Position numbers and translations under genes: made by a program | NCBI RefSeq assembly: GCF_014652235.1 | Contig: NZ_BMYK01000005.1 | Span: 1 to 64,000 of the forward strand | Direction: 5' to 3' | DNA from: Pseudorhodoferax aquiterrae | GTDB lineage: Bacteria; Pseudomonadota; Gammaproteobacteria; Burkholderiales; Burkholderiaceae_C | Length of the DNA: 64,000 nt | Part shown: in pieces, positions 5,794 to 19,776 of the stretch | How the letters are laid out: every line of letters starts with the position of its first letter | How positions within the stretch are numbered: the stretch's first letter is position 1 | The notes under the pieces: model-generated | Database searches by the model: none | What the model was told of the DNA's origin: nothing | The model's input: only the letters and a program-made list of their open reading frames with translations

Positions 5794-6617
5794 TAGAGCG
5801 GCCTCGGCCGCCGTTGCAGGCGCGTTCGCAATGAGCGTGCCATCAGGCCGAGCGCGAATGGAAGGCCATCGATCAGGTAGCGCCGCGCTAGCCGCTGCGG
5901 CTCCTGCACCAGCCGGTGCAACCATTCGAGCCCGCCGGCCTGCATCCACTTTGGCGCCCGCGGCACCTCGCCTGCCACGAAGCTGAAGCTGATGCCAACG
6001 CCCAGGAACCAGGCTTGCGGGTGCAGGCTGCGCAGTTGCTGGATCAGCCATTCCTGCTTCGGCGAGCCGAGGCCGACGAAGACGATGTGCGGGGCGAAGT
6101 CGGTAACGAGGCTGCGGATCCGTGCCATCTCCTCGGGTTGGTTCTCGAAGCCGAATGGGGGGCAGTGGCTCCGCGTGATGGCAGCACCTGCGCCCGCAAG
6201 TCGTGCCGCGGCTTGCTCCGCGGTACCCGGATTGCCCCCCACCAGGGCCAGCCGCAGCCCGGCGGCCGCAGCACGGCGGAAAACGGCGATGAACAGGTCG
6301 GAGCCGGCGAGGCGACACGGGAGCGGGGTGCCCTGCAGGCGGCTGGCCCACACGATCGGCTTGCCGTCCGCGGTGAAGACGGTCGCTTCGCCCACCATCT
6401 GTTTGAAGCCGGGGTCGTGGTGCAGCCTGCGCAGGATGTCGATGTTGGGCGTCACGACCCAGCCGCCTTGGGCGGCGGCTGCGCGTTCGCAGATATGACG
6501 GGCAAGCGAATCCACGTTGCTCGCGACAAAGGGCACGCCATCGACGACCGTGCGGGCCAACCCGTCGGGCGCGTTCACCGCAGCGAGGGCTGATGGAGGC
6601 GGGCTGCTTGCATTCAT
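5793..6617 (-). CDS. WecG/TagA/CpsF family glycosyltransferase (GT26)
   Basis: A 274-residue protein with the full GT26 signature: VVTPNIDILRRLHHDPGF near residue 50, ADGKPIVWASRL, LVGGNPGTAE, IVFVGLGSPKQEWLI and the C-terminal GVGISFSFVAGEVPRAPKWM followed by GLEWLHRLVQEPQRL. Members transfer UDP-ManNAcA, ManNAc or related sugars onto a lipid-linked acceptor, usually as the second step of repeat-unit assembly. The start forms an ATGA overlap with the upstream glycosyltransferase. The donor sugar is not assignable from the sequence. Confidence 0.88.
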   Translation of the reverse strand: MNASSPPPSALAAVNAPDGLARTVVDGVPFVASNVDSLARHICERAAAAQGGWVVTPNIDILRRLHHDPGFKQMVGEATVFTADGKPIVWASRLQGTPLPCRLAGSDLFIAVFRRAAAAGLRLALVGGNPGTAEQAAARLAGAGAAITRSHCPPFGFENQPEEMARIRSLVTDFAPHIVFVGLGSPKQEWLIQQLRSLHPQAWFLGVGISFSFVAGEVPRAPKWMQAGGLEWLHRLVQEPQRLARRYLIDGLPFALGLMARSLRTRLQRRPRPL

Positions 6618-14823: not shown

Positions 14824-15118
14824 TGACCTTCTCCCAATAGTGGTGTGCTGCCATCAGCCCATCACGTAAGTTTGCTTCCGCACCGCCACATCAAGGGGCG
14901 CCAAGACCTTCATCATCGCACGCATCTTTCCGACGGCACCGCCCACGCAACCTCAACAGATGCGCTGTGTTCGCGGGAGGCGCACTCACTTACCGCCTTC
15001 CAAGCATGCACCAGGAATGTGTGTTTTCAGAGTAGTCCGTTCAGGCTATTGCTGCGCTGCACAATAATACTTAAGCTTGCACAAAGTGTCCGGTAACCAC
15101 CACAGTGAGGCGGCATCA
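14824..15118. promoter_or_regulatory. Divergent intergenic region between epsF and the small exported gene
   Basis: A non-coding stretch of 295 bp that must hold promoters for epsF (minus) and the small plus-strand gene. Two GG-N10-GC arrangements are present: CGGCACCGCCCACGCA at 14934-14949 (plus) and TGGCGGTGCGGAAGCA at 14873-14888 (minus, about 50 bp before epsF). Both are only partial sigma-54 matches, and such spacing is easily met by chance in GC-rich DNA. No clear -10/-35 pair is seen. Confidence 0.4.
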
Positions 15119-15433
15119 ATGCGCAAATTTCAGTCTGTCTTTTTGGCCCTGATGTTGAGCGTTGGCGGCGGTCTTCATGGCAATGCGCAAACCTCTTCAC
15201 CTGCCCCCGTGCACAGCACTGTGATGTGGCTGGAGGAATGGATGTCGTTGCCCAAGGCCCAGACCAAAGAGGTGACTGGTAGCACTATGTCGCACAGAGC
15301 GGGACGTTCTTCCGAAGTGGCGGCGCTGCAGCCCACCCCGCTCGATGGATTGATCAACCGTCCCACCATGCTGCTGGCCGGATTGATGGTGATGGGGGTC
15401 ATCATGAAACGCCGCTTCGGTCGCCGCCACTAG
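15119..15433 (+). CDS. Small exported protein with C-terminal membrane anchor and basic tail
   Basis: A 104-residue protein with three parts: a signal peptide (residues 1-25, KFQSVFLALMLSVGGG to NAQT), a polar middle and a C-terminal hydrophobic helix (MLLAGLMVMGVIM) closed by KRRFGRRH. This layout is the one shared by sortase/exosortase-processed surface proteins, but the classical PEP motif is absent; the residues before the helix are TPLDGLINRPT. It is the only plus-strand gene inside the eps locus, convergent with epsL and divergent from epsF. The ATG is preceded by a GAGG-like site. Its function is not known. Confidence 0.6.
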   Translation: MRKFQSVFLALMLSVGGGLHGNAQTSSPAPVHSTVMWLEEWMSLPKAQTKEVTGSTMSHRAGRSSEVAALQPTPLDGLINRPTMLLAGLMVMGVIMKRRFGRRH

Positions 15434-16702: not shown

Positions 16703-18113
16703 GAAAAACCAATCTTATTGTTTTCATGATGATGTACAGATCCAGACGCAGTGACCAATTACGAAGGTAGTCAAGGTCGTGGTGGATCCGGTCCTGCATC
16801 TCCTCCAGCGTGCGCGTTTCCCCACGGCAGCCGTTCACCTGGGCCCAGCCGGTAATGCCGGGTTTCACTTTGTGCCGGACCATATAACCCTTGATGAGCC
16901 TGCGGTAGGTCTCGTTGTGCGACACCGCGTGCGGCCGCGGGCCCACGATGCTCATGCGCCCCTGCAGCACGTTGATGAACTGCGGCAACTCGTCCAAGGA
17001 GGTGCGGCGCATGAATGCGCCAAGCGGCGTGATGCGGCTGTCTCCGCGCTGTGCCTGCTGGACACTGTCGCCGTCTTCGGTCACGGTCATGGAGCGAAAC
17101 TTGTAGACCACGATCTTCTCTCCTGCCAGGCCGTAGCGGTGCTGACGGAAGATCACCGGTCCCGGCGACGTGAACCGAACTGCGCACGCCAGCACCAGGA
17201 GAATTGGCCAGATAAGCGCCAGTATCAGCAGCGATAAGACGATATCGCTGGAGCGCTTTAGGATGCCGTTGATACCGCGGAATGGCGTTTCCCGAACTGA
17301 AATGACCTGGGTGCCACAGACATGGCCCAGCCGTGCCTGGATCAGGTCGGTGAAGAACATGTCCGGCACGAAATAGATGGAAGCCGTGGTGTCCTTCAAC
17401 TCATCAAGCAATTCCAGAATGCGCGGCTGCGAGGCCATCGGAAGGGACAGGTAGATAATCTGGATGCCCTGGGCTTTGACGAAGCCTGGAAGCGCGGTGG
17501 CCGGGCCCAGCAGCCCGAACCCCATAGGCGCATTTAGCCGCTGCAAACTTCTGTCGTCGAAAAAGCCCTTCACCTCGATGCCGGAATAGGGGGTGTCGCG
17601 GATTCGGCGCGCCAGGGCAATTCCTTGCGTATTCATGCCGACGATCACCGCCTTGCGAGACGGGCCGCGCATGGCCAGAACCGCTGGGGCAGCCACTCTC
17701 AATGCTCGGTGGGCGGCGATTTGCGCCAGGGGCGCCATCCACATCCAGGTCAGCAGGGCGCCGATGCTGAACTGGTGGATATAGCCGGTGGCAACTCCCA
17801 TGGTCAGTAGCAGCGCGCCGACCGCGATCCAGTTGATCAGCGTCTGCACAACCAGTTTCACCATTGACGAATGAATCTGGGACGTGCCGGGAAATGTCAT
17901 CGAGAAGACGATGACCGAAAGGACCAGATAGCCCGGGCGCAGGCTGCCCTCGTGGTACAGGCCGACCGCCCACAGGGTGAGGACCAGCATGCCGGGGTCA
18001 ATCAATGCCTCGATGAAGCGCAGGGGATGGTCCTTGTCGAGCGCGCCGATGTCGGCGCTCGTGTTAGAACGGCGCGGCCTTGTGCTGGCGAGAGGGGCGG
18101 GAGAACTATCCAT
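16683..18113 (-). CDS. epsB: EpsB: undecaprenyl-phosphate sugar-1-phosphate transferase
   Basis: A 476-residue polyisoprenyl-phosphate hexose-1-phosphate transferase (WcaJ/EpsB class). It has four to five N-terminal helices, a Rossmann-like central domain (KAVIVGMNTQGIALARRI) and the C-terminal bacterial sugar transferase domain: FKRS-type entry (GILKRSSDIVLS), YKFRSM, SLDELPQFINVLQGRMSIVGPRP and HKVKPGITGWAQV. It starts the repeat unit by loading, most likely, glucose-1-phosphate on undecaprenyl phosphate. The ATG overlaps the epsA stop by 8 bp. Confidence 0.9.
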   Translation of the reverse strand: MDSSPAPLASTRPRRSNTSADIGALDKDHPLRFIEALIDPGMLVLTLWAVGLYHEGSLRPGYLVLSVIVFSMTFPGTSQIHSSMVKLVVQTLINWIAVGALLLTMGVATGYIHQFSIGALLTWMWMAPLAQIAAHRALRVAAPAVLAMRGPSRKAVIVGMNTQGIALARRIRDTPYSGIEVKGFFDDRSLQRLNAPMGFGLLGPATALPGFVKAQGIQIIYLSLPMASQPRILELLDELKDTTASIYFVPDMFFTDLIQARLGHVCGTQVISVRETPFRGINGILKRSSDIVLSLLILALIWPILLVLACAVRFTSPGPVIFRQHRYGLAGEKIVVYKFRSMTVTEDGDSVQQAQRGDSRITPLGAFMRRTSLDELPQFINVLQGRMSIVGPRPHAVSHNETYRRLIKGYMVRHKVKPGITGWAQVNGCRGETRTLEEMQDRIHHDLDYLRNWSLRLDLYIIMKTIRLVFRDSQAY

Positions 18114-18924
18114 GGGCGTAATGACTGTTCTTCAGCCGGGACACGGCTTGGGCGCGGTTGTAGACATCCAGCTTCTTGAAGATGCGCTGCAGGTGGTTCT
18201 TGACCGTGAATGTGCTGATGTCCAGGATGGTGCCGATCTCCTGGTTGGTCTTGCCCATTTCGACCCATTGCATGATCTGCAACTCGCGGCCTGTCATGCC
18301 GTTTTCAGGCGCTGCCTGGTCCAGCCCGTGACGCGAGATGGTGATCTGCGCAGGCACCACGCTGCCTTGCGCGGCGGTCCTGGAGGGCAGGGCAGCCTGG
18401 CGCAAGGCCATGTCGATGTGGGGCAGCAGCGCGCTCATCGCCGCGGCACCGGTCTTCTCAGGGATGGCTTGACGGCTCAGCACGACATACAGGCAATCCT
18501 GCTCACCACGCAGATCGCGCAGGCCATGCACCAGCGCCGAGCGCATGATCGGAGCCGTCGACTGGAACGGCCCATGCTGTGGTATGAGCCCGAGAACGCC
18601 GTTCAAGCGCTCCGCTGGCGTCACGTAGGGCTGCTTGTTCACCGCTGACCAATGGGCAAACAACTCCTGCAGCCCACATCCCAGGCCGGACATGCTGGCC
18701 TGCGCGGTCCGCACGCCGCGCAGCGCAGAGACGATCTCATGGCCGATGGCGCCACGCTGGAAATCGCCCCAGGCGGCCACGAGGATGTCATGGGGCAGGA
18801 AGTGCTGGAGATCACCCCGTAGCCAGTTGACCAAGTCCAGGTGTGTGCGGACATGGGCGACTTCTGTCAGCACATCGAAGCAGCGTCCGCGGTCTGCGAT
18901 GGATAAATTGCTCAGAAATGACAT
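18106..18924 (-). CDS. epsA: EpsA: LuxR-family transcriptional regulator of the eps locus
   Basis: A 272-residue regulator. The N-terminal two thirds are an unassigned sensing domain (begins ADRGRCFDVLTEVAHVRTHLD), and residues 205-265 form a LuxR/GerE helix-turn-helix (MTGRELQIMQWVEMGKTNQE, ILDISTFTVKNHLQRIFKKL). It matches the EpsA family of exosortase/eps-associated regulators. It heads the minus-strand operon with epsB overlapping its stop, so it probably activates its own locus. What it senses is unknown. Confidence 0.87.
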   Translation of the reverse strand: MSFLSNLSIADRGRCFDVLTEVAHVRTHLDLVNWLRGDLQHFLPHDILVAAWGDFQRGAIGHEIVSALRGVRTAQASMSGLGCGLQELFAHWSAVNKQPYVTPAERLNGVLGLIPQHGPFQSTAPIMRSALVHGLRDLRGEQDCLYVVLSRQAIPEKTGAAAMSALLPHIDMALRQAALPSRTAAQGSVVPAQITISRHGLDQAAPENGMTGRELQIMQWVEMGKTNQEIGTILDISTFTVKNHLQRIFKKLDVYNRAQAVSRLKNSHYAHG

Positions 18925-19301
18925 TCACATCCTTGCGGGAAGACCTGTCGATCGGAAACGCAACCACTTTGCTGCCGCCTGAGCGCCTCGAAGTGGTGCG
19001 TTTTCTTGAATGTCCCCGGCCTTGTTCTCTGCATTAGCCAGTTTGATGCCCGTCCATGTCGGCCTGATGGCATCCTGTTCGTCGGCCAAATTGTCATGTT
19101 GACGGCATCTCTCCAGGTCAACGCACCCAGTCGGTGCCTGGTGTTCAGACCGCCGATGTTCGGGAAATTCTGCGTCGACAGATTGTCGATGCCGGTGCTC
19201 GGCAGGCAGGGATGTTAGCGGCACTCGGCAGCAGAGCAACTTTCAAGCCATCAGGAAATGTAACAGTGTCCTGCCCGTCGGCGGGGCGCGGCGCATCCGG
19301 C
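18925..19301 (-). promoter_or_regulatory. Long upstream region of epsA
   Basis: Between the epsP terminator and the epsA start lie about 375 bp without a credible gene. Short minus-strand frames exist (18925-19239) but have no recognisable domain, no good ribosome-binding site and mixed composition. The region holds the sigma-54-like site at 19235-19250. If that is used, epsA would have a leader of about 300 bases. Confidence 0.5.
19235..19250 (-). promoter_or_regulatory. Candidate sigma-54 (-24/-12) promoter for epsA
   Basis: On the minus strand the sequence reads TGGCTTGAAAGTTGCT. It matches the sigma-54 consensus TGGCACGRNNNTTGCW at 11 of 13 defined positions, with exact GG-N10-GC spacing. 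It points to epsA, which starts 311 bp downstream. The window also codes for PrsR, a sigma-54 activator of exosortase-type polysaccharide systems. Confidence 0.55.
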
Positions 19302-19319
19302 AAAACCCCGGTCGGGGTC
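19302..19319 (-). terminator. Short intrinsic terminator overlapping the epsP stop
   Basis: On the minus strand ACCCC-GACC-GGGGT (19318-19305) forms a 5 bp stem with a 4-base loop and is followed by TTT. The hairpin begins within the TGA stop of epsP. The stem is short but all but one pair are G-C. It would separate epsP from epsA. Confidence 0.5.
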
Positions 19320-19776
19320 AACGACGGATGCGCTCTCGCCATGACAGCACGGCCTGCTCGACCAGCTTGTGCGTCTCCTGGTAGACCGATTCGTGCTTGA
19401 GGTAGGGGTCGGCGATGGCAGTGCCGAGCCAATGTCCGAGCAAGCGCGCCTTGGCCGGTGCTTCGGGGTCCAGCTGGGCCAGGTGGCGGACATGGCCTTG
19501 TTCCATCACCAGGATCAGGTCGGCCCACCAGAGCAGGGTGCGGTTGATTTGCTGGGCGCGGTGCCGTTCCAGTTCCTGCAAGAGCCGGGGCTGCTGGCGC
19601 GCGACGTACAGCACAGTCTCGTCAGCCGGCTTGCCGACCAGCGCGCGTGTTCCAGCGGATTGCACCTGCGCCGACTCCGCGTGCCCATCCGCTTGCAACT
19701 GCAGACGCAGCAGCGCTTCGGCCAGCGGGCTGCGGCAGACGTTGCCGGTGCATACGACAAGAATGCGTTCGTACAT
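19318..19776 (-). CDS. epsP: EpsP: low-molecular-weight protein tyrosine phosphatase (Wzb-like)
   Basis: A 152-residue phosphatase with the CX5R loop near the N-terminus (VVCTGNVCRSPLAEALL) and the acid/base Asp late in the chain (ADPYLKHESVYQETHKLVEQA). It should dephosphorylate the BY-kinase EpsG and so cycle polymer length control. The start at MYERILVV is set by homology. An upstream in-frame ATG would add 19 unlike residues. It lies upstream of epsA on the same strand, with its own terminator. Confidence 0.88.
   Translation of the reverse strand: MYERILVVCTGNVCRSPLAEALLRLQLQADGHAESAQVQSAGTRALVGKPADETVLYVARQQPRLLQELERHRAQQINRTLLWWADLILVMEQGHVRHLAQLDPEAPAKARLLGHWLGTAIADPYLKHESVYQETHKLVEQAVLSWRERIRR

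Follow-up and report, generated by a model that had tools for sequence, protein, structure and literature searches.

The closest described systems are the motif 1/motif 2 promoters with PrsK-PrsR and the pepA promoter of Aquincola. In the available text of Haft et al (2006; PMC1569441), PEP-CTERM genes and a small number of other genes, left unnamed, are preceded by motif 1 paired with a sigma-54 motif (motif 2); PrsR is named as the likely binder of motif 1. For PEP-CTERM genes, the site lies on average 71 nt and at most 221 nt from the start codon and the motif spacer is 62.8 nt (SD 10.6); this text never uses the word EpsA. An RpoN1-dependent pepA promoter was mapped in Aquincola tertiaricarbonis RN12, and transcription for EPS biosynthesis in Aquincola seemed independent of RpoN1, as the accessible part of that paper states, citing other work (Xia et al, 2023; PMC9850573). 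In the titles and abstract openings that we searched, with most subscription papers outside this range, we found no description of a sigma-54 promoter of an exosortase-linked epsA.

The epsA locus of Pseudorhodoferax aquiterrae resembles the motif 1/motif 2 promoters in having a −24/−12 element, a long intergenic region, an exosortase/EPS system and a genome that encodes PrsR. It differs from those in the available text (PMC1569441) in three respects: motif 1 is missing at the published distance, the site lies 311 nt from the start codon rather than close to the mean of 71 nt, and the gene served is that of a LuxR-type regulator and not of a PEP-CTERM protein. Aquincola pepA is similar in its −24/−12 promoter, which is mapped, and in belonging to an organism with prsK, prsR, prsT and epsB2 but, unlike epsA, it encodes a PEP-CTERM protein according to the part of the paper at hand (PMC9850573).

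The −24/−12 element and the epsA cluster

The window analyzed here is the whole 64,000-nt stretch of P. aquiterrae DNA. Its epsA gene (18106..18924, minus strand) encodes a LuxR-type regulator that matches the profile TIGR03020 (XrtB/PEP-CTERM-associated transcriptional regulator) with 228.5 bits, above the curated cut-off of 170. The gene overlaps that of an epsB-type sugar transferase (TIGR03023; 16683..18113, minus strand), which in turn overlaps epsL (TIGR03014; 15446..16702, minus strand), and the overlaps suggest a shared transcription unit. The same order of epsA followed by epsB is found at locus L138 and at several Nitrosospira and Nitrosovibrio loci.

Sigma-54 promoters follow the consensus TGGCACG-N4-TTGCW. 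At 19235..19250 on the minus strand, the sequence TGGCTTGAAAGTTGCT matches the pattern TGGCNNGNNNNTTGCW with no mismatch and has GG-N10-GC within a TGGC/TTGC context. The pattern match confirmed the original prediction of a minus-strand site with exact spacing that faces epsA; its count of 11 of 13 positions holds if one extra purine position is included, and our recount against the consensus gives 10 of 12 defined positions. The epsA ATG is 311 nt from the GC of the −12 element, and the site occupies a 393-nt intergenic region whose upstream neighbor is a low-molecular-weight tyrosine phosphatase gene.

With a hand-set matrix modelled on this consensus, the site scored 16.3, the best value in the window, and the runner-up (16.2, at 5827–5842) lies inside genes. 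Dinucleotide shuffles reached the site score 17 times in 5,000 for the 600-nt upstream region and 18 times in 5,000 for 394 nt, a rarity that is modest by itself because the window has dozens of genes. The bare pattern has three exact hits in the window and occurs 81 times in the 7.1-Mb genome as compared to 17 for the reversed pattern; since it is this common, the match alone is weak evidence.

If the −12 position sets the start, transcription would begin near 19224 and produce a leader of ~ 300 nt (predicted at 18925..19224, minus strand). This leader contains the inverted repeat TCGACA-ATC-TGTCGA (19175..19189, minus strand), a candidate protein site or hairpin whose form GACAATCTGTC is present in five of the six Pseudorhodoferax genomes compared below and missing from locus L006. 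Two further blocks are likewise kept in five of six genomes, GATGCC...GGCATC (19045–19074) and GACAATTTG (19087–19095). The alifold value of the leader in five genomes was −62.5 as compared to −52.3 (SD 4.1) for column shuffles, with a covariation term of only −1.8. No Rfam family matched the window at the gathering threshold, and a small ORF in the leader was rejected by eye, as length differences break its frame in the alignment.

The downstream part of the cluster is more variable. EpsL of the window is only 29–31% identical to that of its five genus relatives (L066–L069, L137), and EpsB is 67–71% identical. A search of the few kb downstream in these five did not reveal epsF, and the genes after epsB seem to have been exchanged while the promoter, epsA and epsB stayed. 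A small plus-strand ORF (15068–15433) between epsL and epsF has an apparent signal peptide and a C-terminus composed of PTP, a hydrophobic stretch and KRRFGRRH. It had no NCBIfam match at 1e-10, and its product is possibly an exosortase-sorted protein.

Conservation and recurrence of the site

The original prediction proposed scanning related genomes for the site, and we compared six genomes of the genus group, that of the window included; the relatives include Pseudorhodoferax soli, Pseudorhodoferax sp. Leaf265 and Leaf274, and a strain filed as Variovorax boronicumulans DE0202. The scan bore the prediction out: the site stands before epsA in all six, with 16 of 16 bases in five genomes and 15 of 16 in G004 (locus L006), the most divergent. 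At L006, a 54-nt stretch whose end lies 16 nt ahead of the site agrees with the other five genomes at 11–18 positions, approximately as expected by chance. The conserved block stands out as a footprint against this diverged upstream DNA, which marks it as an element apparently under constraint. We judge the site to be real because it is kept in all six genomes.

Other conserved sequences accompany it. TGTTACA (19259..19265, minus strand), the sole copy in the window, precedes the −24 element by 8 nt and is invariant in all six genomes. On the downstream side, GCTAACAT (GCTA, two variable bases, AT; 19212..19219, minus strand) is conserved as well. Sigma-54 alone does not account for the conservation of these two and of the leader blocks; any of them may be an activator site, an EpsA site or an RNA element. 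A wider regulon of the composite TGTTACA-N8-TGGCTTGNAAGTTGCT was ruled out by a scan of 150 family genomes at up to three mismatches, whose only hits were epsA in both genus genomes of that sample and two three-mismatch matches elsewhere, against seven for the reversed control. A sigma-28 reading (GCCGCTAA), considered by eye, was dropped, as neither its spacing nor L006 fits.

We then scored the 420 nt upstream of 100 EpsA loci, with the opposite strand and the reversed sequence as controls. Of these loci, the genus and order searches supplied 75, the family search around G121 a further 13, and 12 are named ones; the order search contributed 72 of its 86 listed places (the window's own, 69 scored at once and 2 later), and L082 (partial) and L066–L069 (named copies of genus loci) were left out. 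With loci divided into close and distant at a phmmer score of 100 and a site threshold of 14.4, both chosen after the scores had been seen, a site was found on the coding strand at 17 of the 46 closest loci (11 of 40 outside the genus), with none of 46 in either control. TIGR03020 loci thus defined as distant differ, with a site at only 1 of 54 and none in both controls. Among the close loci, raising the threshold to 15 left 14 of 46 (8 of 40 outside the genus; both controls 0), and lowering it to 13 gave 21 of 46 (15 of 40 outside the genus), with one hit on the opposite strand and none in reversed sequence. An earlier count over 69 order-level loci outside the genus had found three at 15 or above, where shuffles gave one on average and four at most. 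The recurrence signal is concentrated in the close EpsA clade.

In the genus g84, TGGCCC[AG]ATAATTGCTC is found at −66 in all three genomes, and the DNA upstream of the site has diverged. Two of the three sites score 14.5, barely above the threshold, and the single-locus shuffle values range from 0.003 to 0.012. In the G121 family search, 11 of 16 loci had no site beyond chance.

Taken with its position, these data make it likely that 19235–19250 is the −24/−12 element of a genuine sigma-54 promoter for epsA and, through gene overlap, for epsB and epsL. RpoN, which is encoded in all six genus genomes, would hold polymerase closed at the element until an enhancer-binding protein opens the promoter, and epsA-epsB-epsL would then be transcribed from it. 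EpsA in turn would act on eps genes as the next tier, a role as second layer that fits its LuxR-type HTH. Several observations stand against this promoter assignment. The 311 nt between site and start codon exceed the range given for PEP-CTERM genes in the available text (PMC1569441), and no clear activator site emerged among those looked for, with the PrsR box and a GlrR-type motif in none of the six genomes and an NtrC-type dyad in two. The conserved TGTTACA and GCTA--AT, the scarcity of sites at distant, order-level and G121-family loci and the RpoN1 statement for Aquincola EPS genes (PMC9850573) also count against it.

PrsR and other candidate activators

The window encodes prsK (TIGR02916; 42877..44994, plus strand) and prsR (TIGR02915; 45015..46355, plus strand, from the start of the HMM match; 44991 in the original prediction), and profile searches identify PrsR, PrsK and PrsT as genuine. 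PrsR had been described as a GAFTGA-type activator, and this held: the protein matches its profile with 739 bits and its GAFTGA is intact. It is encoded once per genome in all six genus genomes, 20–26 kb from epsA. The genome of the window has two copies of rpoN, and a sigma-54 activation domain is encoded ~ 3.3 kb from the second (contigs C35, C7).

One form of the sigma-54 reading is that PrsK-PrsR activates this very promoter, using a site that is degenerate, close to the promoter or in the leader, and that epsA thereby joins the PEP-CTERM regulon. The linkage of PrsR to epsA in all six genomes agrees with this, as does the invariant TGTTACA, which resembles half a box. That PrsR and the site share one window is in itself weak evidence because this genome has 16 sigma-54 activation domains, each a candidate activator. 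In the genus and family, the PrsR box TGTCA-N6-TTTACA stands before seven PEP-CTERM genes. Five of six loci in the genus box search precede PEP-CTERM genes, four of them with TGTCA-N6-TTTACA, and L035 lies inside a coding repeat; three of four loci in the family search likewise precede such genes. At the epsA site, by contrast, the box (17-nt motif 1 ending in TTTACA, 32–92 nt before motif 2) was found in none of the six genomes. The best matrix scores there were −1.7 in the expected zone and 10.1 anywhere in the scanned stretch, the latter within the random range (mean 5.0, maximum 12.8) and both below the 26–31 bits of real boxes, with the caveat that the PEP-CTERM promoter at L034, also from the genus, scores just 6.6. 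A relaxed regular expression for the box also had no match at the genus epsA loci. Among the 18 candidates scored per genome, there was no PrsR match in the three g84 genomes or in G543, all of which have an epsA site; G551 has both, and at the same depth of 18 candidates PrsR was matched in 40 of the 78 genomes outside the genus with an EpsA-type match.

Support for PrsR wiring in general comes from Nitrosospira. Outside the genus, 12 named loci were included, and 5 of them, each from Nitrosospira, have a motif-1-like box 48–61 nt before a sigma-54-type site, close to the spacing given for PEP-CTERM genes in the available text (PMC1569441). The sites score 15.5 (L077), 15.1 (L079) and 15.4 (L080), and 13.5 (L072) and 13.1 (L076), these last two falling under the 14.4 threshold. 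The expression NGTC[AG]-N6-[TC]TTACA, composed after the hits had been seen and scanned in 82 loci and then in all 100 (58.2 kb upstream of epsA), gave five forward matches and none on the opposite strand or in reversed sequence; mononucleotide shuffles gave 0.03 boxes per 12-locus set as compared to the five observed. L076 is an epsA-epsB pair, and in the stretch available at L072, L077, L079 and L080 epsB was not found. The table in the available text of Haft et al lists PrsR for the multiformis genome (PMC1569441). Given the motif-1-like boxes, PrsR-type wiring of epsA-like genes may exist in Nitrosospira. PEP-CTERM-like genes, judged from C-termini read by eye, adjoin the epsA-like genes at L077 (7310–7852) and L080 (7190–7876).

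For the Pseudorhodoferax site, we consider activation by PrsR doubtful; acting through its usual box, PrsR is probably not the activator, given the missing box and the g84 sites without a PrsR match. Of the original prediction, the sigma-54-type promoter facing epsA, RpoN in all six genomes and the linked PrsR stand, and the suggestion that PrsKR controls the eps locus is not supported in the form proposed.

GlrR and NtrC proteins recognize TGTC-N10-GACA-type and dyad motifs, respectively. In six genomes, the GlrR-type motif was absent from a stretch reaching 300 nt ahead of the site and 340 nt past it, and the NtrC-type dyad GCACCGACTGGGTGC is present in the leader in the window and L068 only. 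GlrR-like proteins in the window's genome and in G121 score under the GlrR family cut-off. We compared the activators of the window's genome with those of G121, G569 and G543, all without a PrsR match; proteins were obtained for all but 2 of the 16 window-genome loci (L155, L183) and 5 of the 22 others. Reciprocal best hits in all three genomes were NtrC (60–61%) and one protein of 630–809 aa (41%), and two further activators had such hits in one and two of them. These shared activators are no more than candidates for the epsA site.

Alternative promoters and implications

The main alternative to sigma-54 is a weak sigma-70 promoter (−35 TTGCTC or TTGCTG, 16-nt spacer, −10 TAACAT) whose activator, perhaps EpsA, would bind TGTTACA and TGGCTTG; the −24/−12 likeness would then be due to chance. 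All six genomes keep TA--AT, within GCTAACAT, and the spacing is always 16 nt, so this arrangement would account for both GCTA--AT and TGTTACA. Yet only 7 of 12 sigma-70 positions match (counted by eye), a scan of 18850–19400 for at least 9 of 12 with a spacing of 16–18 found none, the g84 site by eye has no −10 at that spacing, and this reading leaves unexplained why GG-N10-GC recurs at epsA genes of other families. We regard a sigma-70 promoter as unlikely. A chance match without function, which the frequency of the pattern in genome and window might suggest, is very improbable, as the site faces epsA from an intergenic position and its conservation against a diverged background argues strongly against chance.

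Returning to the sigma-54 promoter, we tentatively suggest that sigma-54 control of EpsA could be a design that recurs at exosortase EPS loci of betaproteobacteria while the activator has been exchanged from one lineage to another: PrsR would act through the motif-1 box in Nitrosospira, and Pseudorhodoferax and g84 would rely on another enhancer-binding protein. If so, some lineages would have the regulator of polysaccharide synthesis as a further member of the PEP-CTERM sigma-54 regulon already known, and in Nitrosospira this regulator would share one regulon with the sorted surface proteins. The whole exosortase-linked polysaccharide locus would be switched by an all-or-none sigma-54 promoter that drives a LuxR-type regulator, and the control of flocculation and biofilm in these bacteria would become testable with simple mutants.
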